From contig NZ_CP023318.1 of NCBI RefSeq assembly GCF_009497655.1, forward strand, positions 62,001 to 126,000: a stretch of 64,000 nucleotides of DNA, read 5' to 3'. The position numbers and the translations under genes are program-made. Origin of the DNA: Priestia megaterium (lineage in GTDB: Bacteria; Bacillota; Bacilli; Bacillales; Bacillaceae_H). The notes below the pieces were generated by a model that made no database searches, had not been told where the DNA came from, and was given only the letters and a program-made list of their open reading frames with translations. This document shows positions 9,283 to 62,413 of this stretch, piece by piece. Each line of letters begins with the position of its first letter. The first letter of the stretch is position 1.

Positions 9283-9310
9283 ACCCTCTAGAGAAGATTA
9301 TATGTTAACC
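9283..9310 (+). repeat. Candidate dif-like (pdif) site A
   Basis: Arm ACCCTCTAGAG, spacer AAGATT, arm ATATGTTAACC. The right arm fits the XerD-side consensus TTATGTTAACT moderately; the left arm is weak. It lies 29 bases before site K. Confidence 0.4.
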
Positions 9311-9339
9311 ATAACAGACATATCCTCCGACAAGGACCT

Positions 9340-9367
9340 TTTTCCTTTAATTGGTTTTATATTAACT
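9340..9367 (+). repeat. Candidate dif-like (pdif) site K
   Basis: Arm TTTTCCTTTAA, spacer TTGGTT, arm TTATATTAACT. The arms match the TTCCT..AA and TTATRTTAACT elements shared by the other sites. It lies downstream of the DinB-like gene. Confidence 0.5.
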
Positions 9368-9388
9368 ACAAAAGTCTACTTTTACGAA

Positions 9389-9437
9389 TCTCACAAAGAG
9401 CACATACGTTATTTCAAAAACATTGCTCTTTGTGAGA
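9389..9437 (-). terminator. Terminator after the DinB-like gene
   Basis: TCTCACAAAGAGCA and TGCTCTTTGTGAGA are perfect 14-bp arms with a 21-nt loop, just past the stop of the minus-strand gene. Confidence 0.6.
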
Positions 9438-9452
9438 AGGTTTCTTAATTTA

Positions 9453-9956
9453 TTATTTGGAAGGTTCTTTTTCAGGTAACCCCAATATGTCCGTATTTTT
9501 AGGTGTATGCCCTAATAGGCGTAACATAACTACAATTTGTCCTTTATGATGTGATTCGTGAGTAATTGAATGGGTAAGCAATTGACGAGGTGTCTTTCTT
9601 ACAAAACCACTGTTTGCTCTCCAAGCAAGTTCTTTTTCGATAGACTCATCAAATTTATCTGTGAATTGCTCCAATACTTTTTCTACATATCTATCAGCCT
9701 GTTGAAAATAATGCTGAATATCGTCTATTTTCATAGTATTAATTACTTCTTTTGTGAATAGTGGTGATGATGTTTCTGAAAGCACAAAAGAACCTAACCA
9801 AGCATGGTAGCAACCTGCCACATGAACTAGAGAATCTCTAATATTTTGAAAACCAAATGCAAACTCTTTCGTCAAGTCACCTTCACTCAATTCTCTACAC
9901 TGCTCTAATAAAGTTTGTCGTGCTTGTTTTACCCATTCATATTCTAGCTTTTCCAT
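9453..9956 (-). CDS. DinB/YfiT-fold protein
   Basis: A 167-residue four-helix protein behind AGAGGTGGGATTGTT. The metal-binding pattern of the DinB fold is visible: His in LVHVAGCYHAW near residue 45 and the HESHHKGQIVVML motif near residue 135. The family includes thiol-transferases such as BshA-pathway enzymes and many unassigned proteins; this member is 'DinB family, unknown substrate'. It is unrelated to the DinB polymerase. A terminator follows at 9389. Confidence 0.85.
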   Translation of the reverse strand: MEKLEYEWVKQARQTLLEQCRELSEGDLTKEFAFGFQNIRDSLVHVAGCYHAWLGSFVLSETSSPLFTKEVINTMKIDDIQHYFQQADRYVEKVLEQFTDKFDESIEKELAWRANSGFVRKTPRQLLTHSITHESHHKGQIVVMLRLLGHTPKNTDILGLPEKEPSK

Positions 9957-10238
9957 AACAATCCCACCTCTCAGACATATAATGAAAATTATTTTTTACT
10001 ATACACTATTCGAAATTGTTATTACACCAATTTTTTCATTAATTAGCTTAGTAAATAGTAAAGTCCTTCGTGTATTATTGGCAAATAGATCATTTTCTAA
10101 AAAGAATATAAAATACATACCAAATATGGCTTAGTAACAGGGTAAGAATGTTTTGTTTGAAAGGAATTTATAACTTTTTAATAGAATGATTATGAAAATG
10201 AACAGATAATAAAATATCACATATAAGGAGATAAAACT

Positions 10239-10709
10239 ATGGAAAAAAACAACCTACTAAGAATGGACAATATCAGTATCGTTGTAGAATCCCTTGATGA
10301 TGCAATCTCTTTTTTTGAGGAGATTGGCTTGAGTCTTGAAGGGCGAGCCACCGTCGAAGGTCAATGGGGTGGACGTGTAACAGGATTGGGTTCTCAGCAC
10401 GTAGAGATTGCGATGCTGGTTACCCCGGATGGCCACAGCAGAATTGAACTTTCGCGATTTCTCAGCCCACCTACTATATCAGATCACCGGACTGCTCCTG
10501 TAAACGCTCTCGGCTATCTGCGCGTCATGTTTACTGTTGAAGACATTGACGAAATGGTGTCCAGACTCACTAGGTACGGCGCTCAGCTCGTTGGCGAAGT
10601 GGTTCAATACGAGGATTCGTATCGGCTCTGCTACATCCGTGGAGTAGAAGGAATCTTAATCGGTTTATCAGAGCAAATCGGTAACAAACAAGTAAGTGAC
10701 GTTTTATAA
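10239..10709 (+). CDS. VOC family (glyoxalase/bleomycin resistance fold) protein
   Basis: A 156-residue protein behind AAGGAGATAAAACT. Two beta-alpha-beta modules are seen: MDNISIVVESLDDAISFFEEIGL with VEIAMLV, and LGYLRVMFTVEDIDEMVSRL with YRLCYIRGVEGILIGLSEQ. Family members are metal-dependent lyases, dioxygenases or drug-binding resistance proteins; the substrate here is not evident. The coding region is clearly richer in G and C than its neighbours, which suggests recent transfer from a higher-GC donor. Confidence 0.85.
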   Translation: MEKNNLLRMDNISIVVESLDDAISFFEEIGLSLEGRATVEGQWGGRVTGLGSQHVEIAMLVTPDGHSRIELSRFLSPPTISDHRTAPVNALGYLRVMFTVEDIDEMVSRLTRYGAQLVGEVVQYEDSYRLCYIRGVEGILIGLSEQIGNKQVSDVL

Positions 10710-10900
10710 GAGTCTTTACTGAAATGTATGTTTAAGCTACCTGAATTTTCAATAGATCGAGATTATTTTCAGGTTTTTTTCAAACCTTTCTCTTGCTTTT
10801 TCTCACCTCACCCAATTTTTCTTAATTATGGTATTTTTGTTTTAATATTCAAAAAAAAGGGTAGTTGTTCTAAGAATCAACTAAAATAGGAGGAGATCAA

Positions 10901-11374
10901 ATGAGAAGAGCGAAACAAGCTGTTGTAGCTTCTGCCGTAGGTTTAGCTATGTTAGCGACGCCATTAACTCTACCGAATTTAGGAGGTTCTGCTGGCTCCG
11001 CAGAAGCTGCAGAAGTTGGAGGAGACGTAGCAATTGATCCAGTAGCAATTGGGCAAGCGATTGCAGATGCAGCTAAAACGGCTGATAATCGAAGTGGTTT
11101 TGTCAAAGGAGCAATGGAAAAGGCGTTTTTTGAATCGGGTCAACAATATAATGTAATGGTCATGAATTTGAGTCAAAGTTATAATTCAGATCAATTACAA
11201 GGTGTTCAGTATTTTGATACCGTAGATTATGATGGTATTACGTATGGAGTCTGGATATTTGAAGAAGGAACATTTATTAATGAAGGTGACGGAGGTTATG
11301 ATAACTGGGCCTTCAGAGGCTGGTTTGAACGAACGGGAGATGACGAAAAAACGGTCAACTTTCATAGACCTTAA
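10901..11374 (+). CDS. Secreted protein of unknown function
   Basis: An ATG behind AGGAGGAGATCAA. Residues 1-37 form a long signal peptide ending AEAAE, so the protein is exported. The mature part, about 120 residues, is acidic and Gly/Asp/Phe-rich (VQYFDTVDYDGITYGVWIFEEG, YDNWAFRGWFERTGDD) and looks like a beta-rich extracellular domain, with no Cys or catalytic motif seen. It could be a secreted stress or antagonism factor; no family was recognised. A good terminator follows. Confidence 0.65.
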   Translation: MRRAKQAVVASAVGLAMLATPLTLPNLGGSAGSAEAAEVGGDVAIDPVAIGQAIADAAKTADNRSGFVKGAMEKAFFESGQQYNVMVMNLSQSYNSDQLQGVQYFDTVDYDGITYGVWIFEEGTFINEGDGGYDNWAFRGWFERTGDDEKTVNFHRP

Positions 11375-11381
11375 TCTATAT

Positions 11382-11428
11382 AAAAAGAATTCATTTTGAA
11401 TAATTATTTTCGAAATGAATTCTTTTTT
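11382..11428 (+). terminator. Terminator after the secreted protein
   Basis: AAAAAGAATTCATTT and AAATGAATTCTTTTT arms, then T residues. Confidence 0.75.
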
Positions 11429-11460
11429 ATATTCAAAATTCTCAAAGCGAAAAAGTGTAG

Positions 11461-11497
11461 CAGGGCTCTATATTGTATGATACAATATAGAGCCCTG
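11461..11497. repeat. Perfect 17-bp inverted repeat
   Basis: Two 17-nt arms starting CAGGGCTCTATATTGTA and ending in its complement enclose TGA. There is no T run on either side, so it may be an operator, recombination site or RNA element rather than a terminator. Confidence 0.65.
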
Positions 11498-11529
11498 TAA
11501 ATAATTTGAACAATATACAAAACTTTAGA

Positions 11530-11563
11530 AGAGCCCTGAGTCTTGAATGATACAGGGTCTTTT
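11530..11563 (+). terminator. Weaker hairpin sharing the AGAGCCCTG motif
   Basis: AGAGCCCTG and CAGGGTCT arms followed by TTTT. It reuses the sequence of the palindrome at 11461 (also GAATGATAC in both), so the two may be related copies. Confidence 0.4.
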
Positions 11564-11899
11564 CTAATTGCTAATTTTCTACCATTTGAACATCTTGCCA
11601 TTCCACTGTCGCTTTCTTTACCCTGTCTAGTTTCATAATTTACCTAGTAAATCTTAAACATAGTTAGTTTACTCACATGTTTTTGGTGCGGGTAACATAC
11701 GCACCTCTTGTTGATTTTATTCTTATTTGTCGTCATTAAGTATAAATGGTGAAAGGTTAATAATATATAAAATACTTTAGTATTTATTTAAAAGATAAAA
11801 GAACTTAAATAAGGTTATTTACTAAAAAAAGAATCAATCACAATATTTATTTTTAAAGTTAACTATTAAAAATAAAAGCTTAAAATTACGACGCTAAAT

Positions 11900-11915
11900 A
11901 AGTAAACGTTTACTT
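11900..11915. promoter_or_regulatory. 16-bp palindrome, LacI/GalR-like operator
   Basis: AAGTAAACGTTTACTT is perfectly symmetric with a central CG, as in operators of LacI/GalR regulators including relaxed cre-like sites. It is about 340 bases before the gene at 12254; its target is uncertain. Confidence 0.35.
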
Positions 11916-12253
11916 CATGTTTTTTGGTGGTGTTATTCATAGTTTTAACTGCTATAAAAGGCGTAAAAGGGAACTAATAAATTAACTATTCTAATGAATT
12001 ATTAATTTATTTTTCATAGATACTTAAGAGTATTCCCATACAATTATCTTAACTTTAAAAACATATTGGATATGAGGTGTTCTTTGAAAAAATTAATTTC
12101 AACAAAAACAAATAATAGTAAATGACTAATGGAGTAAATTGATATAGATTGCACTCGTTTTTTGAATTCTAAAATGCACGGCAATAATATAGAAAAATCA
12201 GTTTGTTCTTTTAAAAAAGTTGTGGGAAACCACTGCAAAGAAGGGGAATGTGT

Positions 12254-13456
12254 ATGCAAGAGAACCAAAATAAATTGGGTATTGCACTTAACAAAGTGCC
12301 AGAAGTCACAATTTTCTTCTGGATAATCAAAGTTTTGTGCACAACTGTAGGTGAAACATTTGCTGATTTTCTAAATTTCAACCTTGGATTTGGGTTAACT
12401 GTCACTACTATAATTATGGGAATAGCATTTTTTATTTTATTATACCTTCAATTTAAAGCAACTAAATATGCCCCAGGGATTTATTGGACAACGGTGGTGC
12501 TTATAAGCGTATTTGGAACATTAGTAACTGATAATTTGACAGATGCAATGGGAGTACCTCTTGAAGTTAGTACAACTGTTTTTTCCGTTCTACTTGGCTT
12601 AACTTTTCTTTTCTGGTATCTTAGTGAAAAAACACTCTCTATACACTCAATTTATACAAGAAGAAGAGAAGTTTTCTATTGGCTTACTATTCTCTTTACA
12701 TTTGCACTTGGAACAGCAGTAGGTGATTTATACTCTGAACAACTAGGCTTTGGCTACCTTAAAACGGGAGTAACAGTCATCATTATCATAGGCTGTATCT
12801 TTTTGGCATACAAATCAAAACTTAATGGGATTTTAGCATTTTGGATTGCCTATATTCTTACTCGTCCACTGGGAGCATCATTAGGAGATTACCTATCACA
12901 AACAAAAGTTAATGGTGGATTAGGTTTGGGAACAACTGTTACTAGTGTTATTTTTCTTATAGCTATTTTAGCAATAATTGTTTTTCTCGCCATTACAAAA
13001 ATTGATATAACTTCAAAAAATGAAATGGTGGATACAAATCCAACACGTGCAAGTAAGAGAAATGTTTTGACACAAACCATTGTAGTGCTCTGTATTTTCT
13101 TAGTTCTAAGTATAGGTGGTTATATCTGGCGCAGTAATGATTTAGTATCACAATCCACTGCTTCACAAGCTTCATTATCTGGGCAATTAAAGGATTTTAT
13201 TAAAATTGAAAATGATATGCTCAAGGATGTAAATTCAAAAAATTTTACTGCAACGAAAAAAGGAGCAGACGATTTAGAACATAAGTGGGACTCATCAGAA
13301 GCTAAACTTAGAAAAATAGACGGTTCTAAATGGACCAAGATCGATGGAACTATTGATGTTGTATTAGCAGCAGCTCGTTCATCCAACCCTGATGTCAATA
13401 AGTGCAAATCAGCACTTGATAATTCACTGACTGCACTAAACGCAGCTAATAAATAA
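12254..13456 (+). CDS. COG4705-type polytopic membrane protein
   Basis: The ATG at 12254 has AAGGGG at 7 bases and is preferred to the ATG at 12248. The 400-residue protein contains four related two-helix units, each with a PEVTIFFWIIKVLCTTVGETFAD-like or TALGTAVGD-like pattern (conserved Gly, Asp in-membrane), giving about eight helices in residues 10-240. A further helix near 275-295 leads to a soluble, Lys-rich C-terminal domain of about 100 residues outside the membrane. COG4705 proteins are uncharacterised; conserved in-membrane Glu/Asp suggest a transporter. The added C-terminal domain is unusual. Confidence 0.75.
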   Translation: MQENQNKLGIALNKVPEVTIFFWIIKVLCTTVGETFADFLNFNLGFGLTVTTIIMGIAFFILLYLQFKATKYAPGIYWTTVVLISVFGTLVTDNLTDAMGVPLEVSTTVFSVLLGLTFLFWYLSEKTLSIHSIYTRRREVFYWLTILFTFALGTAVGDLYSEQLGFGYLKTGVTVIIIIGCIFLAYKSKLNGILAFWIAYILTRPLGASLGDYLSQTKVNGGLGLGTTVTSVIFLIAILAIIVFLAITKIDITSKNEMVDTNPTRASKRNVLTQTIVVLCIFLVLSIGGYIWRSNDLVSQSTASQASLSGQLKDFIKIENDMLKDVNSKNFTATKKGADDLEHKWDSSEAKLRKIDGSKWTKIDGTIDVVLAAARSSNPDVNKCKSALDNSLTALNAANK

Positions 13457-13487
13457 AAAAGAGGTCGCAGACTGCAACCTCTTTTTT
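13455..13487 (+). terminator. Terminator of the COG4705 gene
   Basis: AAAAAAGAGGT and ACCTCTTTTTT arms, immediately at the stop codon. Confidence 0.8.
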
Positions 13488-13837
13488 ATTACAAATATGG
13501 GATTTTATTATCATATTTAAATGCGAAATCAGGTGTAAATTGGAAGTTTGCCTAAAATTGATACTTTTTATTTTCATAACATATGACTAAAATACGAATT
13601 CTACAGCAAAAGTCAGATAGTTAGTGCTTAGAGAGCCTAACTATTATGTATTTCTCATTCCTATTATAAACCTTTTTACTTTCTATAAAGAAAGATACTC
13701 GCAGACGAATTAAATAGAAAGGTAAGCTCCTAGTCCTAGTTAAAATATATAAATAAGCTCCTAGTTAACATAAAACGTATTATCGGTAATAAATTAAGAG
13801 TCTTTTTCTAATGAAGAATTTTAAAGGTTTTAATTTA
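13488..13837. other. Intergenic stretch, about 350 bases
   Basis: No gene. A short direct repeat (TAAGCTCCTAGT) occurs near 13724 and again near 13755, the second copy running into dif-like site B. Confidence 0.5.
13763..13790 (-). repeat. Candidate dif-like (pdif) site B
   Basis: On the minus strand: arm ATTACCGATAA, spacer TACGTT, arm TTATGTTAACT. The left arm shares TTACCGATAA with site J at 38947, 25 kb away. Confidence 0.6.
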
Positions 13838-14119
13838 TCAAAAGGAAACTAAAGTTCTTAAAATGGAAATCGAAACCCATAATACAGCTAAAATTATGGG
13901 CAAGAAAGTAACAATAAGACCCCATTTTACAGTTTTTTTGATAAATAATAAGACTGATCCTAAAACCCATACGGGAATCACTAGTAACATTTTTGGATCG
14001 GTAAATCTGTCTCCAGAAAAGTTTTCGCCTAATCCTCCTTCAGCAAGGAACCAAGCGAATGGGAGAATAATAATACCTGTTATTAAAAGATGGACAACTC
14101 GATATATATTGAAAAACAT
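13838..14119 (-). CDS. Small polytopic membrane protein, 93 residues
   Basis: An ATG behind AGGGGATTAGT. Three hydrophobic helices are predicted: about 7-26, 43-60 and 66-88. The loop between the first two carries GGLGENFSGDRFTDPK. No family recognised. It is the only gene between candidate dif-like sites B and C. Confidence 0.6.
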   Translation of the reverse strand: MFFNIYRVVHLLITGIIILPFAWFLAEGGLGENFSGDRFTDPKMLLVIPVWVLGSVLLFIKKTVKWGLIVTFLPIILAVLWVSISILRTLVSF

Positions 14120-14201
14120 ACTAATCCCCTAACTGAATTACCTTTTTGTACCATTTTATCAATAATATAAATTTAAATCACTATATATATTTTATACCTT
14201 T

Positions 14202-14229
14202 AGTTAACGTAATCCATATTATAGGAAAT
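14202..14229 (-). repeat. Candidate dif-like (pdif) site C
   Basis: On the minus strand: arm ATTTCCTATAA, spacer TATGGA, arm TTACGTTAACT. This is one of the closest matches to the Bacillus dif arms as recalled (ACTTCCTAGAA and TTATGTAAACT). Confidence 0.7.
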
Positions 14230-14256
14230 TATCAATCTGGTACTTTTTGACACAGA

Positions 14257-14302
14257 CCTCCAATTCGATTATTATCTAATTAGATAATAATCGAATTGGA
14301 GG
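14257..14302. promoter_or_regulatory. 46-bp perfect palindrome, operator of the ArsR-type gene
   Basis: Two 23-nt arms without a loop, centred on TCTAATTAGA; the left arm begins CCTCCAATTCGATT. Its right end supplies part of the GGAGG ribosome site of the gene at 14319, so an RNA hairpin would hide that site. It is the likely autoregulatory operator of the ArsR-family protein. Confidence 0.75.
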
Positions 14303-14318
14303 AGGAAGGTATTAAATT

Positions 14319-14900
14319 ATGCAATTAGATAAATTAGTCAATTACCATAAGGCAGTTGGAGACCCCACAAGAATTAGAATTATTTCCTTATTAAAAAAAG
14401 GCCCTCTTCATGGCCAAGCAATCGCTTATAAACTTGGGTTACAACCGCCAACCATTACTCACCATATTTCAAAATTGAGAGATGTAGGGTTAGTTTATCA
14501 AAGAAGACAAGGGAACATTATTTATTTTTACCTCGATAGTGAAAGGCTAGAATATAATTCAAAAGCTATCTTAAATATTGGGGAGGAGTCTATGGAGAAC
14601 CAAGATAGTAAAATCAATAATCAAGATAAGTTATCTATTGTTAAAAATTTTATAAATAGCGACGGGACATTGAAACAAATTCCGAGTCAAAGAAAGAAAA
14701 AGAACGTTATATTAGCGTATTTAATACGTGATTTACATCAAGGAAAAACGTATAAAGAAAGGGATCTTAATGAATATATAAAAAACTATCATGAAGATTA
14801 TGCGACTATTCGTAGAGAATTAATTATGCAACACTTCATGTATAGGCAAAATGGAGAATATGAATTAAATCCAAAAGAGATGTGGCCTGTTACCTTTTAA
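14319..14900 (+). CDS. ArsR-family regulator with DUF2087 domain
   Basis: A 193-residue protein behind GGAGGAGGAAGG. Residues 1-85 are an ArsR-type winged helix (AVGDPTRIRIISLLKKGPLHG, then LQPPTITHHISKLRDVGLV and a wing RRQGNIIYFYL). Residues about 110-190 are a DUF2087 domain (KKKNVILAYLIRDL, KTYKERDLNEYIKNYHEDYATIRRELI). No ArsR-type Cys metal site (ELCVCDL) is present, so metal sensing is doubtful. It sits between the 46-bp palindrome and a second, degenerate copy before the MFS gene at 14993, so it probably represses itself and that transporter. Confidence 0.88.
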   Translation: MQLDKLVNYHKAVGDPTRIRIISLLKKGPLHGQAIAYKLGLQPPTITHHISKLRDVGLVYQRRQGNIIYFYLDSERLEYNSKAILNIGEESMENQDSKINNQDKLSIVKNFINSDGTLKQIPSQRKKKNVILAYLIRDLHQGKTYKERDLNEYIKNYHEDYATIRRELIMQHFMYRQNGEYELNPKEMWPVTF

Positions 14901-14925
14901 AATGAACGTTTCTTCGTTCATTTTT
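14899..14925 (+). terminator. Terminator after the ArsR-type gene
   Basis: AAAATGAACG and CGTTCATTTT arms with a 6-nt loop and T residues. Confidence 0.75.
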
Positions 14926-14935
14926 CAATCCAACT

Positions 14936-14959
14936 AATTCGATATCTATCTAATTAGAT
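14936..14959. promoter_or_regulatory. Second, degenerate operator before the MFS gene
   Basis: AATTCGAT, TATCTAATTAGAT: the same left arm and centre as the 46-bp palindrome at 14257, located 34 bases before the MFS start. It supports joint control by the ArsR-type protein. Confidence 0.6.
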
Positions 14960-14992
14960 TACTGTTATTTTTAATAAGAATGAGGTGTAAAT

Positions 14993-16219
14993 GTGATTCC
15001 AATAACTAAAGAGGCTAAAGTACAAACAGGTATTTGGAAAGGAAAGTTTATTTATCTATGGGTAGCAAGTATATTTTCAAGCCTTTCTATTTCAATGTAT
15101 TTAACTATTGAGCAGTGGTATGTAGTCAATTACCTAAACTTGAAGAGCTCTTTAGGAATTATTTTAATGGCGACTACGATTCCTAGAGTATTATTAATGG
15201 TCATAGGAGGCGTTGTATCAGATAAATACAGACGATCTAGAGTTATATTCTTTTCATTACTAACTAGGTGTTTTATGCTACTTCTGATGGCTTTATTCTA
15301 TACAAATAATTTATTATCTCTTTCTGCCTTACTTATATTTGCTTTATTATTTGGGGCATCAGATGCATTTTTTTGGTCAGCTAGAGATGCAATTGTTCCA
15401 GGGATTATTCATAAAGAACAACTAGTCAGAGCGAATTCAGTAATACAAACAACGAATCAGCTTTCTGTCATGTTTGGCCCTGTCTTAGGTGCTACTCTCC
15501 TTTCACTTTTCTCATATTCAACCATCTTTCTGATAATTGGCTTTACACTTTTGATAAGCATAATCTTGTTACAATTCATCAAAGAAAAGAAGACATTAAG
15601 GCCCAAGAAAACATCTATCTTAAGGGATTTAGCTGAAGGAATTAATTATGTTAAAGATTCCTCGTTTCTTCTGACAGTCATGGTGACATTTATTATTGTC
15701 AACTTATTCTTTATTGGACCTCTCATGTTAAGCATCCCTATCCTTGCAGAGGATCATTTTAAAGGAAATGCTTTTTACTTAAGTATTTTACAAAGTTCGT
15801 TTGCTAGTGGCATGTTGTTAGGAGCTATAATCATGGGCTGGTTGAACATAAAAAGGAATAGAGGAAAACTTGCAATTTCTTTCATATTCTTGGAAGGGTC
15901 ATTACTTATGATATTTAGCCAAGGAATTAATCTCTGGCTTGCTGCTGCTATTTTGTTAGCTATTGGATGTTGTGTATCAAGTATTAATATTCCCATAGTT
16001 AGTTTAATACAGGAGAAAACACCCTCAACCATAGTAGGTCGAGTTATGAGTGTAAATACAATGGTTTCCATGGGACTTATTCCAGTTTCTTATGGATTAG
16101 TTTCCACTCTTCTTAGCATTAATGTCGATATTAAATTTATTCTCTTATGTGCTGGTATCGTGATTGTATTATTTAGTGTACTACTTCTTTTAAAGGCTTC
16201 AGATCTTAAAAATACATGA
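14993..16219 (+). CDS. MFS efflux transporter (DHA3/EntS-like)
   Basis: A GTG start behind GAGGTGTAAAT. The 408-residue protein has about 12 membrane helices. The loop-2 motif GGVVSDKYRRSR (the MFS motif A, G-x3-D-x2-R-R-x-R) is intact. The layout matches the MFS_3 group, which includes enterobactin and macrolide exporters; a drug or siderophore substrate is plausible. It lies downstream of the ArsR-DUF2087 gene and a shared operator, so expression should respond to that regulator's ligand. Both genes are enclosed by dif-like sites C and D. Confidence 0.88.
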   Translation: MIPITKEAKVQTGIWKGKFIYLWVASIFSSLSISMYLTIEQWYVVNYLNLKSSLGIILMATTIPRVLLMVIGGVVSDKYRRSRVIFFSLLTRCFMLLLMALFYTNNLLSLSALLIFALLFGASDAFFWSARDAIVPGIIHKEQLVRANSVIQTTNQLSVMFGPVLGATLLSLFSYSTIFLIIGFTLLISIILLQFIKEKKTLRPKKTSILRDLAEGINYVKDSSFLLTVMVTFIIVNLFFIGPLMLSIPILAEDHFKGNAFYLSILQSSFASGMLLGAIIMGWLNIKRNRGKLAISFIFLEGSLLMIFSQGINLWLAAAILLAIGCCVSSINIPIVSLIQEKTPSTIVGRVMSVNTMVSMGLIPVSYGLVSTLLSINVDIKFILLCAGIVIVLFSVLLLLKASDLKNT

Positions 16220-16248
16220 GGTATCTATAATAAAATCAGGCCTTATTT

Positions 16249-16276
16249 AGTCACTATAATCCACATTCTAGGCACC
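16249..16276 (-). repeat. Candidate dif-like (pdif) site D
   Basis: On the minus strand: arm GGTGCCTAGAA, spacer TGTGGA, arm TTATAGTGACT. The left arm has the CCTAGAA core; the right arm differs at three positions from TTATGTTAACT. Confidence 0.55.
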
Positions 16277-16277
16277 A

Positions 16278-16308
16278 AAAGAAGCATCTAGCTATTAGAT
16301 GCTTCTTG
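16278..16308. terminator. Hairpin between the MFS gene and the 30-residue peptide
   Basis: AAGAAGCATCTA and TTAGATGCTTCTT arms. It overlaps the edge of site D and can serve both converging genes. Confidence 0.6.
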
Positions 16309-16335
16309 CCTCTTATCAAATAGTTTTACTAGAAT

Positions 16336-16428
16336 TCAATCTATACTAGTCATGACAACTTGAGCTCCAATATAGAGTAATATTAAGGCCATTATAATTC
16401 CAATGAGTATCTTCTTAAAACTGCTCAT
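16336..16428 (-). CDS. Single-helix membrane peptide, 30 residues
   Basis: An ATG preceded by AAGGAGAT at a slightly long distance (11 bases). The peptide MSSFKKILIGIIMALILLYI... is one membrane helix with a positive N-terminus and a short polar tail. Too short for a database-type family call. It is the only possible gene between dif-like sites D and E. Confidence 0.45.
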   Translation of the reverse strand: MSSFKKILIGIIMALILLYIGAQVVMTSID

Positions 16429-16506
16429 TTAATATCCATATCTCCTTCTTAGTACTTATAAACGTATAATCTAAATAATAACATTTATGGATAAATAAAG
16501 TCTTTT

Positions 16507-16534
16507 AATTAACATAATGTTTGTTCTAGGAACT
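16507..16534 (-). repeat. Candidate dif-like (pdif) site E
   Basis: On the minus strand: arm AGTTCCTAGAA, spacer CAAACA, arm TTATGTTAATT. This is the best match of the set: the left arm differs from the recalled B. subtilis dif arm at only two positions. Confidence 0.75.
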
Positions 16535-16612
16535 TCCAAATAAAATGTAGCTCTTATTGTAGCATTTACCTTATACTTAAAAATGATATGGATATATTTG
16601 GAGGTTTTTTAT

Positions 16613-17356
16613 ATGAAAGAAGTCACTAAATTAGGAAAGATGCAAGATATTGGTGGTATTAAACTTTATTACGAATTTTTCGAAAGACAAAATGAAAATA
16701 TGACAATTATATTTGAATCTGGATATGGCTGCACTTCTGATTACTGGAACCCAATCAAAGAGGAAATTTCAAAATTTGCACAGTTTTTTATCTACAATAG
16801 ACCAGGCTTAGGAGAAAGTGAACAAGACGATAGACCAAAAGACAGTAAGCAGTCCGTTGAGAATTTACATACTCTTTTACGAAATGCCAATATTAAACCA
16901 CCATATGTACTTGTAGGTCATTCAATTGGAGGAGCTAATGTAAGGTTATATGCTAGCAAATATCCTGAAGAAATAGCAGGAATTATTCTTTTAGATTCCT
17001 GTCATGAAGATCAAAACAAAATTATGCCCCCATTATTCACTGAAGAAATGAGGTCTATTTATTTTAACCAGTTTTCAATCGAAGGTTCTATAGATGACAT
17101 TGAAAAAAGCTTTGAACAAATAAGTGAAGTTAAATCATTAGGAGACGTACCTCTTACAGTTGTGAGCGCTGGCCTACAGTCTTATCACACAACGGAATCT
17201 TTTGCTGCATGGAATCTATTTCAACGTGATTTAACACGTTTATCAACGAAGAGTAAACATATTATTGTTAAAGATGCAGGACATCTACTGCACGTTGATC
17301 AACCTCAGATTATCATAGATATTATTAAAGATGCATTGAAAGAAGTAAAAAAATAA
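16613..17356 (+). CDS. Alpha/beta hydrolase
   Basis: The ATG at 16613 with TTGGAGG is preferred to the upstream ATG at 16583. The 247-residue protein has the alpha/beta-hydrolase signature: oxyanion region IIFESGYGCTSDYW, nucleophile elbow VLVGHSIGGANV (Ser near 101), acid in LLDSCHEDQ or the later strand, and His in VKDAGHLLHVDQP near 227. Substrate unknown; candidates are esters, lactones or antibiotics. It is bracketed by dif-like sites E and F. Confidence 0.88.
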   Translation: MKEVTKLGKMQDIGGIKLYYEFFERQNENMTIIFESGYGCTSDYWNPIKEEISKFAQFFIYNRPGLGESEQDDRPKDSKQSVENLHTLLRNANIKPPYVLVGHSIGGANVRLYASKYPEEIAGIILLDSCHEDQNKIMPPLFTEEMRSIYFNQFSIEGSIDDIEKSFEQISEVKSLGDVPLTVVSAGLQSYHTTESFAAWNLFQRDLTRLSTKSKHIIVKDAGHLLHVDQPQIIIDIIKDALKEVKK

Positions 17357-17413
17357 GTCTGGTACAATACTGTGTTTAATTGAATTATGTTAATGAATAT
17401 CATATACAATCAT

Positions 17414-17441
17414 AGTTAACATAATCACTCTTAACGGAACC
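17414..17441 (-). repeat. Candidate dif-like (pdif) site F
   Basis: On the minus strand: arm GGTTCCGTTAA, spacer GAGTGA, arm TTATGTTAACT. The right arm is a full consensus match. Confidence 0.65.
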
Positions 17442-17678
17442 CACGCAAAAAGAGAACCCTTATGGGAATAGGGGTTCGAAAGAGGTCTCATTTATGAGTT
17501 ATGCAGCTTTTTATACATCGTTGATTTGTTAGGCTTTTCATCAGGAGGACCAACATATTCGATGCATAAAAAGCGCACCTTTTATTCATATGCAAAATAA
17601 GAAATATATAGTCTTTATGGAAAAATTATGATATTATGTGCTTGCTGTACTATGCATTCTTCAACGAGTGTGAACCAC

Positions 17679-17725
17679 AAAAAGCAACCTCTCTCCAATG
17701 CCATGGGATATGAGGTTGCTTTTTA
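17679..17725 (-). terminator. Terminator of the CNNM/CorC-type gene
   Basis: AAAAAGCAACCTC and GAGGTTGCTTTTT are perfect 13-bp arms. Confidence 0.8.
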
Positions 17726-17729
17726 TTTA

Positions 17730-19049
17730 CTATTTAGCTAAGCTCAGAGAATGCTGTTTATTTGCTACCTCGATGGTTTGAATATTTCGCCCATCAAGTT
17801 CTCTCACAATAAACTCAAAATCATTATACACAAGGACTTCATTTAACTTAACGTCTATTTTCTGAGATAAGATCCATCCACCTATCGTATCGACCTCATT
17901 AGTTTCAATGTTCGTTCCCATTAGTGTATTTACGTCTCTTACTAATACTTTCCCATTAAAAACATAGTGATGTTCACCAATTTTTTGCCTATCGAGCACT
18001 TCATCAGAATCAAATTCGTCATGGATTTCTCCTACGATTTCTTCTAAAATATCTTCAACGGTTACTAAACCAGCTGTCCCTCCATATTCATCAAGTAAGA
18101 TTGCTATGTGGATACGTTCCTTTTGCATCTTTCTTAATAGCCTATTGATAGAGTACGATTCAATGACTTGAATCACGGGTTTAACGTAACAGCTAATGAG
18201 TTGGTTTCGTAAGGTGTCATCAAATGCAACATCGCTTAAGATTTCTTTTATATTTACCATCCCTATGATTTGATCTTTATCTCCATCGGTTGTTACTGGG
18301 TAACGAGTATACTGCTCCAATGCAGCCATTTCTAAAAATGCACCAATCGTGTCATGTTCAGAGATTGTTATCATCTCAGTTCGTGGAATCATGATTTCTT
18401 TCGCCAGACGTTCATCAAATTCAAAAATATTGTTTACGTACTTTAGCTCACTATGATTAATAGCACCACTCTTATAGCTCTCAGCTAACAGGAGACGAAG
18501 TTCCTCTTCTGAATGGGCCAATTCGTGCTCTGAAGCAGGTTTTAACCCAAACATTCCAACCAGTATTCGTGCAGAACCATTTAAAATCCAGATAAACGGA
18601 TACATGATTTTATAAAACCAGATGATGGGCGCTGAAAATAACAACGTGACAGCTTCTGCTTTCTGTATTGAAAATGTCTTAGGTGCTAATTCACCTACCA
18701 CAACATGAAGATAGGTCATCACAATAAAGGCGATACCAAACGATAAAAGGTGTGTAATGGACTCATTTAAGTCAAACTTCATAAAAATGGGACTTAGCAT
18801 CCTTTCTACCGTAGGTTCACCAAGAACACCTAGCCCCATCGCTGTTACTGTAATACCTAGTTGACAAGCAGATAAATATTCGTCTAAGTGCGTAATGACC
18901 TTTTTCGCAGACACAGCACCCTTTTTACCTTCAGCTACAAGTTGATCAATCTTAGAGCTTCGTACTTTTACAATCGCAAATTCTGTGGCTACAAAGAAAC
19001 CAGTCAATCCAATTAATACTGCTACCAATAACAAGTTAATTATGTCCAA
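17730..19049 (-). CDS. Hemolysin/CorC-family (CNNM) membrane protein
   Basis: A 439-residue protein of the UPF0053/TlyC type. Residues 1-190 are a DUF21 (CNNM) membrane domain with [21 protein letters not shown] and about three or four helices. Residues about 205-330 are a CBS pair ([58 protein letters not shown]). Residues about 350-430 are the CorC/HlyC C-terminal domain. Relatives such as YhdP and MpfA act in magnesium efflux. The start is TTG, with GGAGGTG 30 bases upstream and a small hairpin in between (see findings). It precedes no other gene in its direction and lies between dif-like sites F and G. Confidence 0.9.
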
Positions 19050-19127
19050 TTAGTTATCTTACCTAAGTAAGATTTACACCTCCAATAGATTTAATGACAA
19101 ATACATTATGTAGAAACATCTAGCTAT

Positions 19128-19358
19128 CTATGCTTCTTTTAAAATGACTCGTTGTAAAGGAACACCACCCATGCTTATCGTCTTTTCAGATAACGTATAT
19201 TTCTGATGATCAACTAATAAGGTATGAGTATCAATAACTTCACAGGTCGTTCCTTTGTTTTGAAAATGTTTTACGACAGCTTTTTTTAAATCAGTTAGGT
19301 TGTAGTATCTCTCTTCAAAATCAATGACAATTTTCTTTTTTCCAAATAAACCAAACAT
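19128..19358 (-). CDS. Small soluble protein, 76 residues
   Basis: An ATG behind AGGAGGGAATTTGG. The product starts MFGLFGKKKIVIDFEERYYNLTDLKKAVVKHF and has alternating strand and helix segments. It is read in the same direction as, and 78 bases before, the CNNM-type gene, so the two may be co-transcribed. No family recognised. Confidence 0.6.
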   Translation of the reverse strand: MFGLFGKKKIVIDFEERYYNLTDLKKAVVKHFQNKGTTCEVIDTHTLLVDHQKYTLSEKTISMGGVPLQRVILKEA

Positions 19359-19441
19359 CCAAATTCCCTCCTATATGCTTATACGATTCACATGTATAAA
19401 AGTTCCATATATTTTCATATATTCCAATTATATAACATCAA

Positions 19442-19469
19442 GGTTAACATAAGGGATATTCTGGATGAC
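19442..19469 (-). repeat. Candidate dif-like (pdif) site G
   Basis: On the minus strand: arm GTCATCCAGAA, spacer TATCCC, arm TTATGTTAACC. Confidence 0.55.
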
Positions 19470-33325: not shown

Positions 33326-33420
33326 TATAAAGTAAAATTGACTGTATTTAGATATACTTTATTGAATTAATGTACCCTTTAGTCCAATAAAATATTTGAT
33401 CTAGTTGAACAATTAAATTT

Positions 33421-35131: not shown

Positions 35132-35144
35132 CATAGAGGATGAC

Positions 35145-35178
35145 AAAAGCTTTGCGAAAGATTTCGTAAAGCTTTTTT
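35145..35178 (+). terminator. Terminator of the Rpn gene
   Basis: AAAAGCTTTGCGAAA and TTTCGTAAAGCTTTT arms followed by T residues (one G-T pair). Confidence 0.8.
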
Positions 35179-35356
35179 ATTTTACAATTATTTAATTTTT
35201 TTTGGAGTTATTATGCACAATAGGAAAACGAATAAAACAGCTATTTTTTAAAGTGAAACTTATAATCTATAATTAATTATGAATGGTTTCTAGAACTAAG
35301 GTGCTCCTCTAAAATATAAGGGAACCTCTTTTTGTAAATAGGAAGAAAAAAGTTGA

Positions 35357-35384
35357 CCTCCTAATAAATCATATTATGTTAATT
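35357..35384 (+). repeat. Candidate dif-like (pdif) site H
   Basis: Arm CCTCCTAATAA, spacer ATCATA, arm TTATGTTAATT, followed by AGAGGTGT, which recurs after site I. It is left of the LysE-type gene. Confidence 0.65.
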
Positions 35385-35441
35385 AGAGGTGTGTAGAGCA
35401 CACACTTTATATCCTCTACTAATAGTTGAAATTAGAACTAT

Positions 35442-36065
35442 TTATGTACGAGCTTTTTCCAGAGCGAGTTTTATACCAAATCCTATTAATATAGTACCTG
35501 TTATTCCCTCAATAACCTTTTGTGTCTTAGGCTTCTTCATAAACGCACTAATCTGGTTAAGTAAATAGATATAAAATAAATACCACACGACAGTTAATAC
35601 AATATAAGTTATCCCAAGTATAAGAAATGGCATAAAAGTATGTCTTTCAGGATTCACAAACTGTGGTAGAAAGGTTAAGAAAAAAACAGCTATTTTTGGA
35701 TTTAGTAGATTGGTAAGGAAACCTTGTTTAAAAGAAGACTTATTCTTATACTTACTTTCGACAACCGTTTCAGTTGTTTCTTGATTTCTTAATGTCCATA
35801 ATGACTTGATACCTAAATAAATTAAGTACACCGCACCAATATATTTAAAGATAGAAAATAACAGAGCTGATTTCGCAATAATTGCCGAAAGTCCTGCAAT
35901 AGCAGTTAGTGTGTGAATAGATAGCGCACAACAAATCCCAAGCATTGTCTTAAACCCTCCCTGTTTGCCACCAGTAAGAGTGTTTTTTGTCATGATAGCA
36001 GTATCTGGACCAGGTAAAATAATTAGAAATATGCATGTAATCACGAACAAATAAAAGTTTTCCAT
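35442..36065 (-). CDS. LysE/RhtB-family amino-acid exporter
   Basis: A 207-residue membrane protein behind GAGGGGCGATAATAAG, with six helices. The family motif LPGPDTAIMTKNTLTGGKQGGFKTMLGICCA is present near 17-47 (cut here into LPGPDTAIMTKN and GGKQGGFKTMLGI), as is TNLLNPKIAVFFLTFLPQFV. It exports amino acids or related small molecules. It is the only gene between dif-like sites H and I. Confidence 0.9.
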   Translation of the reverse strand: MENFYLFVITCIFLIILPGPDTAIMTKNTLTGGKQGGFKTMLGICCALSIHTLTAIAGLSAIIAKSALLFSIFKYIGAVYLIYLGIKSLWTLRNQETTETVVESKYKNKSSFKQGFLTNLLNPKIAVFFLTFLPQFVNPERHTFMPFLILGITYIVLTVVWYLFYIYLLNQISAFMKKPKTQKVIEGITGTILIGFGIKLALEKART

Positions 36066-36202
36066 CTTATTATCGCCCCTCGATTAAAATAGTTCTGTAT
36101 CTACAATTCTTACATTGTATTATAGGTTAATCATTTTATTAATTGAAGATAAATCCTATAATACTTCTTCTTTGTTTTTTTAAAACTAATGGATTCTTTT
36201 TT

Positions 36203-36230
36203 ATGAATTCAAAAAAATATTATGTTAACT
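36203..36230 (+). repeat. Candidate dif-like (pdif) site I
   Basis: Arm ATGAATTCAAA (poor), spacer AAAATA, arm TTATGTTAACT (perfect), followed by AAAGGTGT as after site H. The repeat with site H brackets the LysE gene. Confidence 0.45.
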
Positions 36231-36314
36231 AAAGGTGTATATCGTATATAGCTTAAAAACAGAAAAAAACTACTGACTTATCAGCGATCAATAGTTTTTC
36301 CTGTGAGTGCTCAA

Positions 36315-37166
36315 TTAAATTTTATGAAAAATATTAAATTTATCCCATAGTTGTTCAAGGGACTCTAGTTTATCTTGGAAATTTTCTTCTTTTTCTTTTC
36401 CTACAGATATAATTAGTGCATTTATGAGACTAAGTGGAGCTACGAATGAATCAATAAAAGTCGGCATTTGACTAGATGCTGTTAATGGGATATCTGCATA
36501 AGGTATTAGAGGCGATAATAGATTATCTGTTATTGCAACAGTTGTTGCTTCTTTTTCTTTTGCATACGAAAAAACTTTTATTGTACTTTCCGTATATCTT
36601 GCAAAACTGATTCCAATTACTACATCATCTTCATTTAAATCATATATACGTTCTGATACATTCTCAATTGAATGAATAAGCTCGACTTGTTCTAAAAGAA
36701 ATTGCAAATAGTACTGTAAAAATACACCTAAAGCTGTAGCACTTCTATTTGCCACAATATATACCCTTTTAGCTTTAAGTAGGCTCTCTACCGCATTTTT
36801 AAAAACCTCAATATCTAGTCCATCTAAAGTGGATCTAATGTTTGAAATATCGTCTAAAAAGATATCGTATACGCTTTGATCCTGATCTTTATATACTTCT
36901 TTGGATATTTTTAACCTCTCAGTTGTTGTCAACTGTCGTTGGGCAGAACTTTGCATATATTGTTGAAGTTCTGGATAACCGGAACATCCTAAAAAAGTAG
37001 CAAAACGTACAACAGTCGCAGGACTAACCCCTGTAATCTTGGCTAACTTATCCCCCGTTAAAAAAGGAACTGTATTAGGATTTTCTAAAATGTATTTAGC
37101 TATCCTCAAATTTGATTTACTCATAGTAGGCATCTGTTCTGCAATATGTTTATAAACATTCTTCAT
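36315..37166 (-). CDS. MurR/RpiR-family transcriptional regulator
   Basis: A 283-residue regulator behind AAGGAGATTATTAA. Residues 1-77 are the RpiR HTH (KLAKITGVSPATVVRFATFLGCSGYPELQQY). Residues about 125-260 are a SIS phosphosugar-type domain (AKRVYIVANRSATALGVFLQYYL, DDVVIGISFARYTESTIKVFSYAKEKEATTVAITD). The next gene in its direction set, an aminotransferase, has a 16-bp repeat operator, probably its target. The effector may be the aminotransferase substrate rather than a sugar. Confidence 0.9.
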   Translation of the reverse strand: MKNVYKHIAEQMPTMSKSNLRIAKYILENPNTVPFLTGDKLAKITGVSPATVVRFATFLGCSGYPELQQYMQSSAQRQLTTTERLKISKEVYKDQDQSVYDIFLDDISNIRSTLDGLDIEVFKNAVESLLKAKRVYIVANRSATALGVFLQYYLQFLLEQVELIHSIENVSERIYDLNEDDVVIGISFARYTESTIKVFSYAKEKEATTVAITDNLLSPLIPYADIPLTASSQMPTFIDSFVAPLSLINALIISVGKEKEENFQDKLESLEQLWDKFNIFHKI

Positions 37167-37384
37167 TTAATAATCTCCTTCATTCTAATCAAGTTATGTG
37201 TAATAAAAAATTATTTTCAATTATATATCCATCATTATAAACTAAAATGCCCTTCAAAAAATTGATCAGTTTTAGAATACCCCTCTAGTTTATACCTTTA
37301 AGATTTTGAAAATATCACCAATAACAATTAGTCTATTCTTTTCCGAAAACATTCACATATTACATTGAAGCATGTAATAAAAAT

Positions 37385-37429
37385 AAGAGCTATAACAAAT
37401 TATGCATGTGCATAGTCGTTATAGCTCTT
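37385..37429 (-). terminator. Terminator of the aminotransferase gene
   Basis: AAGAGCTATAAC and GTTATAGCTCTT perfect arms with a 21-nt loop. Confidence 0.65.
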
Positions 37430-37443
37430 AGTAAATTGATACT

Positions 37444-38820
37444 TTATTTAGTGATTACACGCTGAATTGCTTGGTCATGTGCTGCTACTGTACGCTGAAT
37501 ATCTTCTTTTGTATGAACAACAGACATAGAATAACGATTAAGAGGTTTTGTATAAACACCTAGTTTTAATAACTCATAATCAATTTTTTCGCGTAGTTTT
37601 GTATCTGCTTTATTCATATCGCGATAATTTTTGATATTACCTTCACCAAGAATAATATTAAAAATACTACCCATACCAACTGTTTGCATAGTCAACCCGT
37701 GGGATTTATATATTTCTTCTAATTGATCCCTTAACAATCGAGTATTTGCAAATAATTGGTCCATTGTACCTTTCTGCTCCAATACATTAATTGTAGCTAA
37801 ACCTGCCGCAAGTATAGTTGGATGACCATTGTATGTTCCACTATGGTATAGAGGATCTTGTTTATTCTTATTCTCTGCTCCAGCTGTTAAAATATCGCGC
37901 CCATCCCTGGCAGAACTAATCATCATAATTTCTTTTTTACCACCAATAGCTCCCACAGGAAAACCTCCGCCAAGTACTTTTCCTAAAGCAGTAATATCTG
38001 GTTTAACTCCATAGACTTTTTGTGCTCCACCAAGGGAAATTCTAAAACCTGTCTTTACTTCATCAAAAATCAACACAATATTAAGTTCCTCTGTAATCTT
38101 GCGGAGACCCGTCATAAAATCTTGATCAGCTGGAATAAATCCACCTTGGATAGGTTCTAAAATTACACCTGCCAATTCATGAGCATGAGCTTTTAAGATC
38201 TTTTCTGTTGCTTCTAGATCATTAAATGGAAGAATCACAGTATTTTCAAGATAATAGTCTGGCAGTCCTCTTGATTCTCCTACTGCTTTAGGGGTTGTTG
38301 CCTCCCCTGCTTGATCTATATCAGGATTCACACTGACTAAAACTTGATCATATCCTCCATGATAGTGACCTTCAAATTTCGCAATTTTTTCTTTACCTGT
38401 ATAGGCAACTGCTGTACGAATAGCTAAAAGTGTAGCTTCTAATCCAGAATTTGTATAGCGAACCATTTCAATACCAGGATACAATTCAACCAATTTTTCT
38501 GCCATCGTCGTTTCCATTTTATGTGGTGTACCGAAAATAGTTGTACCTGACTCCATCATTTGCTTCGTTACAGCCTCAAATACTTGCTGATGTCCATGAC
38601 CTAAGATGAGAGCACCATAACATAGGAGATAATCAATATATTCGTTTCCATCCACATCCAAAAGCTTACTTCCTTTCCCTTTCTCCATCATTAATGGATG
38701 AGGATTAAAGTATTTAATGTTTGCTGTAACTCCTCCTGGAATTACCTCGCATGCTTTGTTAAATAAACTCGCAGACTTTTTAGTCTTTTCAGAAAGTAAT
38801 GTTTCTTCTTGAATTTTCAT
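37444..38820 (-). CDS. Class III PLP aminotransferase (GSA aminotransferase-like)
   Basis: The start at 38820 follows CAGGGGGATTTTTTT. The 458-residue enzyme has the class III fold: YIDYLLCYGALILGHGHQQV, KFEGHYHGGYDQVLVS, EPIQGGFIPAD, LIFDEVKTGFR and the PLP lysine in DITALGKVLGGGFPVGA near 275. Relatives convert glutamate-1-semialdehyde or transaminate omega-amino acids; because heme synthesis genes are absent here a catabolic transaminase is more likely. It is likely controlled by the adjacent RpiR regulator, and the pair lies between dif-like sites I and J, next to the LysE exporter module. Confidence 0.88.
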   Translation of the reverse strand: MKIQEETLLSEKTKKSASLFNKACEVIPGGVTANIKYFNPHPLMMEKGKGSKLLDVDGNEYIDYLLCYGALILGHGHQQVFEAVTKQMMESGTTIFGTPHKMETTMAEKLVELYPGIEMVRYTNSGLEATLLAIRTAVAYTGKEKIAKFEGHYHGGYDQVLVSVNPDIDQAGEATTPKAVGESRGLPDYYLENTVILPFNDLEATEKILKAHAHELAGVILEPIQGGFIPADQDFMTGLRKITEELNIVLIFDEVKTGFRISLGGAQKVYGVKPDITALGKVLGGGFPVGAIGGKKEIMMISSARDGRDILTAGAENKNKQDPLYHSGTYNGHPTILAAGLATINVLEQKGTMDQLFANTRLLRDQLEEIYKSHGLTMQTVGMGSIFNIILGEGNIKNYRDMNKADTKLREKIDYELLKLGVYTKPLNRYSMSVVHTKEDIQRTVAAHDQAIQRVITK

Positions 38821-38847
38821 AAAAAAATCCCCCTGTACCATCAAAAA

Positions 38848-38896
38848 TTGAAATTATTATTTCACATATAATTATAACACGAAATAATAATTTCAA
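38848..38896 (-). promoter_or_regulatory. Twin operator of the RpiR/aminotransferase unit
   Basis: TTGAAATTATTATTTC and GAAATAATAATTTCAA are perfect 16-nt inverted arms 17 bases apart. Each arm is itself a near-palindrome of the GAAA...TTTC type bound by RpiR regulators. A TATAAT in the minus-strand reading (38871-38876) lies between the arms, so binding would block transcription. Confidence 0.7.
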
Positions 38897-38946
38897 TATA
38901 GGGAGAATTTCTTTATTTATAGAAAAAGAAATTAAATAACTGACCT

Positions 38947-38974
38947 TTTACCGATAACATCTGTTATGGTAACT
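38947..38974 (+). repeat. Candidate dif-like (pdif) site J
   Basis: Arm TTTACCGATAA, spacer CATCTG, arm TTATGGTAACT. The left arm is nearly the same as that of site B. Confidence 0.6.
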
Positions 38975-62411: not shown

Positions 62412-62413
62412 TT

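Follow-up and report, generated by a model that had tools for sequence, protein, structure and literature searches.

The locus discussed here raises the question of whether short repeats resembling the chromosomal dif site divide a plasmid into movable gene units and, if so, what moves these units. The stretch of DNA that we analysed, referred to as the window, is 64,000 nucleotides long and corresponds to bases 62001-126000 of contig C2, a plasmid of 139,750 base pairs (bp); the same genome also has a chromosome of 5.03 Mb (C1) and a contig of 76.5 kb (C3). The host is a relative of Priestia megaterium/aryabhattai: 171 of 173 and 83 of 87 plasmid records that match two large parts of C2 are from Priestia, and P. 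megaterium and P. aryabhattai make up most of these records, among the matches listed. From the sequences compared, it appears close to certain that the plasmids and the chromosome carry cassettes that are bounded by dif-like sites, arranged head-to-tail and shuffled. The explanation that best accounts for the observations as a whole, and which we consider very probable, is that the sites are relatives of dif and that the cassettes are moved by the XerC and XerD recombinases of the host.

The sites consist of an 11-bp XerC arm, a 6-bp spacer and an 11-bp XerD arm (28 bp). In the host genome, a dif-type pattern with up to three mismatches gives nine matches, and none when the pattern is reversed. 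The likely chromosomal dif of the host is GGTTCCTAGAATATATATTATGTAAACT, at C1:2395716, which splits into GGTTCCTAGAA, the spacer TATATA and TTATGTAAACT. A first matrix was seeded with four chromosomal matches and with the Bacillus subtilis dif; the spacer was left free and no window site was used. In C2, this matrix detects 23 sites that score 16 bits or more. The sequence-only reading of this DNA had named shuffled sequence as the control for its sites, and there sites are nearly absent: 40 order-1 shuffles contain 0.53 on average and two at most, and the reversed plasmid none. With a refined matrix, C2 has 24 sites of at least 16 bits, 17 of which are outside the window, and reversed C2 has none; at a lower cut-off (at least 10 bits) there are 31 matches in C2 and three in its reverse.

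The matrix was refined on a comparison set of C2, C3 and 21 plasmids from PLSDB (23 records, 2.14 Mb; W03, W10 and W17 in part only); PLSDB assigns 18 of the 21 plasmids to rep_cluster_385. These plasmids were chosen for sharing blocks with C2, and therefore are a non-random sample. The 23 records contain 406 sites of at least 16 bits, against two in the reversed sequences. All 21 plasmids match the site pattern with up to three mismatches, between 3 and 31 times each, while the reversed controls give zero or one match each. The sites belong with Xer/dif-type sites in that they have the 11-6-11 layout and that both arms match those of the host dif; the refined consensus retains both arms.

The sequence-only reading had listed eleven 28-mers in the window. 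All of them are where it had placed them, and seven are strong. The orientations are also as it had described: plus for 9283 and 9340, minus from 13763 to 19442, and plus from 35357 to 38947. Those at 9283 (below 9 bits, with a score of -7.5 for the palindrome described below) and 19442 (10.1 bits, palindrome score 0.3) are individually at chance level, and those at 35357 and 36203 look decayed. Read on the minus strand, a tight array goes from 17414 to 16507, 16249, 14202 and 13763; a conserved non-coding leader occupies 17442-17735, so that the array begins at 17414 and ends at 13763. The features of this part of the window are as follows.

9340..9367, plus strand: solitary dif-like site, spacer TTGGTT, 20.6 bits; homology with NZ_CP024036 begins 0 bp away
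13763..13790, minus strand: dif-like site, last of the window array, spacer TACGTT, 29.3 bits
13791..14201, minus strand: cassette of 411 bp, possible product of 93 amino acids, no Pfam match
14202..14229, minus strand: dif-like site, spacer TATGGA, 25.5 bits; palindrome score 6.1 at 14182-14196
14230..16248, plus strand: cassette of 2019 bp, ArsR-type regulator (HTH_5 and DUF2087) and MFS transporter, from Pfam
16249..16276, minus strand: dif-like site, spacer TGTGGA, 23.0 bits
16277..16506, no strand assigned: cassette of 230 bp, 100% identical in NZ_CP024036 and NZ_CP064278, four of four edges 0 bp from sites
16507..16534, minus strand: dif-like site, spacer CAAACA, 27.7 bits
16535..17413, plus strand: cassette of 879 bp, alpha/beta hydrolase, open reading frame (ORF) 16583-17356, from Pfam
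17394..17408, minus strand: palindrome TGTATATGATATTCA, 5 bp beyond the XerD arm of site 17414, score 12.7
17414..17441, minus strand: dif-like site, first of the array and adjoining the leader, spacer GAGTGA, 29.4 bits
17442..17735, minus strand: conserved non-coding leader, from the alignment of 14 leaders and the ordinal test

That compact gene units lie between neighbouring sites is borne out by the four modules of this array, which recur elsewhere with edges at sites. Besides the 230-bp cassette, the 411-bp cassette is 100% identical in NZ_CP024036, where each of its two edges is 0 bp from a site; in NZ_CP083270 there is a diverged partial copy (88%), near a site at one end only. The 2019-bp cassette is found in five plasmids with 98.2-100% identity, and nine of its ten edges are 0 bp from a site, the tenth (in NZ_CP151785) having no site above threshold. 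The hydrolase cassette occurs with 99.9% identity on the chromosome of the host and in NZ_CP117691 (four of four edges 0 bp from sites), and a partial copy (91%) in NZ_CP085437 has a site at only one of its ends. Site 16507 likewise has a counterpart with the same XerC arm and spacer on the host chromosome, at C1:1751214. On the contrary, the proposal that a CNNM-type gene (17730-19049) forms a module bounded at 17414 finds no support: the side of 17414 that faces the gene is the non-coding leader of about 290 bp, and for this reason the gene is not established as a module.

The same pattern holds over the whole comparison set. We collected the ends of homology from an all-against-all comparison (at least 90% identity over at least 200 bp), using sites of at least 13 bits. 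The comparison of related plasmids, which the sequence-only reading had suggested, supports its proposal: ends concentrate on the sites, 420 of 1906 being at most 30 bp from a site centre where 24.8 are expected. Counted as distinct positions, 286 of 1428 ends are within 20 bp of a site; this number falls to between 5 and 30 when the sites are shifted by 100-400 bp. The 421 sites examined give 380 distinct junctions. Among recurrent left ends, 40 of 68 have at least two right neighbours, and among recurrent right starts, 50 of 71 have at least two left neighbours; as for the modules of Acinetobacter, which are recognised by their presence in different contexts, 48 of 59 recurrent unit families occur in at least two contexts.

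One could argue that the repeats are merely shared terminators or operators and that exchange occurs by ordinary homologous recombination in their flanks. A T-rich terminator-like sequence does adjoin the XerC arm, the palindrome adjoins the XerD arm, and most homology ends are away from the sites. However, the cassette edges fall exactly 0 bp from sites, identity stops inside the 28-bp site with a switch that can be followed base by base, and the conserved core of about 20 bp is short for RecA. We consider this explanation highly improbable.

The base-by-base switch also indicates which part of a site follows which unit. When two junctions share the left unit alone, identity spans the XerC arm and fades in the spacer (101 deduplicated pairs); when only the right unit is shared, it covers the XerD arm and is lost within the spacer, coming from the opposite side (95 deduplicated pairs). 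Where the flanks are nearly identical and the shared arm is identical, the two members of a pair have the complete spacer in common in 22 of 40 left-shared pairs and in 10 of 35 right-shared ones. In the remaining pairs, many of which are related, a switch after three bases is the commonest (7 of 18 and 8 of 25, respectively). A serine recombinase cutting the centre of the site would explain such a mid-spacer switch in pairs whose spacers are not identical; serine crossover sites are likewise about 28 bp long, and a recombinase family protein is annotated in NZ_CP085437. But the two central bases differ between sites, many pairs share the whole spacer and the arms match those of the chromosomal dif; on this evidence from the sites, a serine enzyme is very unlikely.

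Two cases of rearrangement can be read from the sequences. The tail of an array (spacers GTGGTA, TTTCGA and TCCATT) stands behind different heads in C2 and NZ_CP024036, and the site that joins it has the spacer CGCACA in both. NZ_CP041067 and NZ_CP018878 differ by the gain or loss of a single cassette, and in the site that remains, the XerC arm and spacer are those of the first site, whereas the XerD arm comes from the second; this is the junction expected from recombination between direct repeats. Spacer families with repeated members include CGCACA, TACGTT and AATCCA. We also observed the spacer CGCACA in an Acinetobacter pdif site (L301 3132); it is found repeatedly in Priestia, for example at C2 2282 and 24758.

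Regarding the enzyme, two proteins of the host genome are above the XerC/XerD family cut-off, and both are chromosomal. One is encoded between genes that we read from their translations as fur and drm, the place of ripX (xerD) in B. subtilis; the other lies between genes read as trmFO and hslV, the place of codV (xerC). The genome has seven phage-integrase matches, XerC and XerD included. No integron-type integrase was found among the seven next to the window array; the sole match on C2 falls below the cut-off of the Xer family and is separated from this array by about 28 kb.

The plasmid tyrosine integrase (ORF 45682-46854) was considered as the enzyme that moves the modules in place of XerCD. 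It belongs to the phage-integrase family, and in most of the 30 plasmid rows listed the matching stretch carries the annotation of a site-specific integrase. Two array-rich genomes of the sister genus, G014 and G015, nonetheless have 79 and 50 composite sites (XerD arm plus palindrome) without an ortholog of this integrase, their best E values (4.1e-11 and 7.7e-11) being at the level of other Xer-like proteins; conversely, G009, an array-poor genome, has a 90% identical copy and yet no composite site. Moreover, the arms of the sites are those of the chromosomal dif. This candidate was thus rejected, and it has in our opinion little chance of being the array recombinase. Since the plasmid integrase does not track with the arrays, the case for XerCD rests on the identity of the sites, on which basis XerC (CodV) and XerD (RipX) of the host are the likely agents. 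We note that the region 44255-46854 of the window, with a tyrosine integrase and an HTH/excisionase-like protein, recurs on many Priestia plasmids and is not tied to arrays.

The arrays have a marked polarity. Neighbouring sites at most 1.5 kb apart are in the same orientation in 221 cases and inverted in six (n=227); up to 6 kb, the numbers are 302 and 18 (n=320). The units have a median length of 771 bp (quartiles 447 and 1506). Out of 319 units, 161 have exactly one ORF of at least 50 amino acids and 23 have none. The longest ORF points along the array in 190 units and in the opposite direction in 106. The units are therefore cassette-like, probably with promoters of their own.

Many arrays begin with the leader, an element of about 290 bp that comprises, in this order, a terminator-like hairpin, an inverted repeat of a motif, a direct copy of the motif, a second terminator-like hairpin and the XerC arm (14 leaders aligned). 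In the window, these parts are at about 17677-17726, at 17562-17589, at 17500-17518 (the direct copy, ATGTATAAAAAGCTGCATA) and at 17447-17477 (the hairpin with a T run); the RNA fold of the window leader has a z score of -4.42, mostly due to the hairpins and the inverted repeat. With up to five mismatches out of 19, ATGTATAAAAAGCTGCATA is found in the left 130 bp of 57 sites, at positions -77 to -75 in 50 of them, against four occurrences in the right flank and three on the other strand. The spacer starts with GAG in 50 of the 57 motif sites; 19 GAG sites have no motif. Where leaders fall in runs of at least three sites, the leader comes first in 27 of 39 cases (7.3 expected); it opens 27 of 54 such runs, the other half starting without one, and another 18 leaders belong to runs of one or two sites. 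The leader therefore marks the start of many arrays, and it probably insulates them by its terminators. In the sister genus g4 (L274-L285), a different terminator-bearing element, which often contains TAAAAGTATACTTAAA, stands before 24 of 78 sites, but its position at the head of arrays is less clear.

Two other ideas about the leader were considered. Its place before many arrays makes it a candidate for an attI-type element as in integrons. If it were a preferred insertion point, moved cassettes should be found beside it; in 61 pairs of the same cassette with different neighbours there is no general enrichment of this kind, at least one copy being adjacent to a leader in 16 pairs (15.3 expected). 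Both copies are leader-adjacent in four pairs, where 1.1 are expected, and three of these four are one cassette. The left flank of the GAG-spacer sites is not the end of a recombinase gene either: it has no shared long reading frame and aligns as a conserved non-coding element.

A second conserved part lies on the other side of the site. When 286 dissimilar sites are aligned, their right flanks reveal a 15-bp palindrome, TGTATANNNTATACA, from +6 to +20 past the XerD arm. In a two-fold cross-validation, +6 is the best position for 142 of the 286 sites, and the score is at least 5 at +6 in 50.7% of them, against 0.36% elsewhere. The palindrome was not seen in the flanks of the likely chromosomal dif sites that were checked (L009, L026, L029 and L031), whose scores are between -2.0 and -4.3. 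As for its nature, a DNA or RNA hairpin was rejected, since the seven arm pairs show no consistent covariation: compared with shuffles, complementary bases are more frequent in the pair 2/14 (101 against 92.3, standard deviation 3.1, that is 2.8 standard deviations) and less frequent in the innermost pair (43 against 50.3, standard deviation 4.7), and the other five do not differ. A protein-binding site is preferred on this ground, and the palindrome is probably the site of an accessory protein.

It may also be that the palindrome acts as an operator for transcription of the cassettes, unrelated to recombination. The palindrome is at the start of the units, and the lack of consistent covariation fits an operator as it fits any protein site. 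However, the distance to the XerD arm is fixed whatever the gene or its direction, and the palindrome is missing from the flanks of chromosomal dif mentioned above. We regard the operator as unlikely, though less so than the other alternatives considered here, and continue with an accessory site for recombination.

Of 16 genomes from the family, 14 have the combination of XerD arm and palindrome, with up to three mismatches; the highest number in one genome is 135, and the controls give two matches across the 16. In the sister genus g4, the palindrome is present at 35 of 73 sites; it is also present in loci of Sporosarcina globispora and Peribacillus loiseleuriae. In the order the combination is rare: of 150 genomes, 24 match and the reversed-pattern controls give 18 single matches, so that only genomes with several matches count. 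Two genomes of one genus from another family of the order, G039 and G082, have 14 matches each, mostly with a TGAATA-type palindrome, the TGAATANNNTATTCA type. Half of this palindrome resembles the ArgR box, with a different spacing. ArgR is an accessory factor at cer.

The sites themselves are present in all ten genomes of the genus Priestia searched with the pattern (up to two mismatches), 1 to 104 times each, and the controls total three; genomes with one to four matches may hold little beyond dif. The richest genome has 174 matches with up to three mismatches, against seven in the control. Elsewhere in the family, the numbers per genome are 58 and 46 for genus g4, 6 and 6 for g3, and 0 and 0 for g2. 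Arrays are chromosomal in G006:C6 (a 5.3-Mb contig) and in G008:C1. In an order-wide scan for the arm pattern, 243 of 348 genomes match, mostly once or twice, which we took as chromosomal dif. A wide scan for the core carries little information on distribution, many of the matches listed being taken as ordinary chromosomal dif. In the open-access literature that we searched, the papers listed for dif modules concern Acinetobacter, and none of those listed deals with such arrays in Bacillaceae.

The likeness to the Xer-dif modules of Acinetobacter, which the sequence-only reading had put forward, holds for the principle and not for the layout. In both, 28-bp sites with a variable 6-bp spacer between XerC and XerD arms are shuffled with breaks at the sites, and the Xer enzymes are chromosomal. 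But the C and D modules of Acinetobacter alternate between inversely oriented sites, according to PMC13141974, whereas neighbouring sites in Priestia are head-to-tail (221 to 6) and do not alternate in this way. The four sites of pABLAC1, from Acinetobacter, alternate in orientation, and the palindrome was found at none of them. In contrast to Acinetobacter, a leader precedes many of the Priestia arrays, and pattern matches number 104 in one genome, chromosome included. PMC13141974 also places crossovers in Acinetobacter at sites with identical or nearly identical spacers, and PMC11705084 reports intermolecular but no intramolecular recombination of such sites.

The arrays resemble integrons in being head-to-tail, in the small and mostly single-gene cassettes (median 771 bp), in the non-coding element before many arrays and in the shuffled order; they differ from them in that no dedicated integron integrase was identified, that the sites are dif-like and not attC-like, and that cassette genes point both ways. 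Integrative mobile elements exploiting Xer (IMEX), such as the CTX phage, use the host Xer proteins at dif-like sites and insert at dif itself; contrary to these, the Priestia arrays are away from dif, and its spacer TATATA is outside the 40 commonest module spacers. Last, cer and psi associate a XerCD core with adjacent accessory DNA or proteins, as described in PMC5357621. There, the accessory DNA of cer is about 180 bp long, whereas the sites of Priestia delimit cassettes and have only one 15-bp palindrome as accessory DNA, on the XerD side.

Several points weigh against our interpretation. Many neighbouring sites differ in their spacers, which canonical XerCD recombination tolerates poorly, and Acinetobacter sites without closely related central regions do not recombine in the experiments described in PMC11705084. 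About half of the sites have no palindrome. Most homology ends (1486 of 1906, 78%) are away from the sites, so that the plasmids must also recombine or change in other ways. The mid-spacer mode is supported by few and partly related pairs, the cases of cassette gain or loss are only two, and the 21 comparison plasmids were picked for DNA shared with C2. Finally, recombination is known here from historical junctions read in sequences.

We propose the following mechanism. The XerC arm stays with the left unit and the XerD arm with the right unit, as the sequences show, and the host XerC and XerD would exchange strands in the spacer. Sites that have the same spacer could recombine conservatively, which would lead to the exchange of array tails and to the integration and excision of circles. 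When the spacers differ and the changeover is in mid-spacer, a single strand exchange might be followed by resolution of the Holliday junction or by replication. The reaction at cer depends on accessory proteins and is completed by a cellular Holliday-junction resolvase, according to PMC5357621, and therefore offers a precedent for the single-exchange idea. The palindrome, 5 bp past the XerD arm, would bind a dimeric protein that helps or controls recombination at module sites and not at dif. Since the sites are direct repeats, excision and integration of single cassettes are topologically simple. The movement of single modules in Acinetobacter is hard to explain with inverted neighbouring sites, a difficulty that direct repeats avoid.

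The second group of sites in the window illustrates weaker boundaries. The sites at 35357 and 36203 look like sites with a decayed XerC arm, because they have a good XerD arm and a palindrome at the correct distance.

35357..35384, plus strand: weak dif-like site, 13.5 bits; variant palindrome at 35390-35404, score 7.0
35385..36202, minus strand: possible cassette, LysE-type transporter, ORF 35442-36065; boundaries weaker than in the main array
36203..36230, plus strand: half site, below 9 bits, with an intact XerD arm, a degenerate XerC arm and a palindrome at 36236-36250, score 11.9
36231..38946, minus strand: possible cassette, RpiR-type regulator and class III aminotransferase
38947..38974, plus strand: dif-like site, spacer CATCTG, 28.5 bits

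The site at 35357 is also found in NZ_CP026738 and NZ_CP083270, and these two plasmids have in common the whole block 35357-38947 with its sites; in NZ_CP041064 and NZ_CP146263, the ends of homology of this block do not coincide exactly with sites. Some sites stand apart from arrays. In genome G000, two module-type sites (C1:2436873 and C1:2441303) lie at distances of about 41 and 46 kb from the likely dif of the chromosome, in the opposite orientation to it. The site at C2:130402, which would be position 68402 of the window and thus lies beyond it, shares its XerD arm with the chromosomal dif, and the first 13 bases after this arm are those found at the likely dif of the host; it may serve to resolve plasmid dimers and not to bound a cassette.

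We also note an apparent defence island at 53678-63973 of the window, with two TIR proteins, one of them ThsB-like, a cytosine methylase, one protein with matches to PbeA and helicase models and another that matches a type II restriction enzyme. A permease of endospore germination is encoded at 39762-40880.

The arrays are a new, integron-like variant of Xer/dif modules, and they suggest that a housekeeping enzyme of chromosome separation also shuffles genes between plasmids and chromosome. A wider idea, which we put forward tentatively and with somewhat more doubt than belief, is that Bacillaceae have an analogue of integrons in which XerC/XerD and a dedicated palindrome-binding partner would act on a composite site made of XerC arm, spacer, XerD arm, 5 bp and palindrome, and leader-headed cassettes would move on plasmids and chromosomes by a single-strand exchange that tolerates mismatches in the spacer, of which the half-spacer chimaeras would be the trace. 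The palindrome and the leader are concrete experimental handles in a genetically tractable soil bacterium. If this is true, Gram-positive bacteria would have a large integron-like system of cassette arrays, and the control of Xer recombination away from dif would become directly testable.

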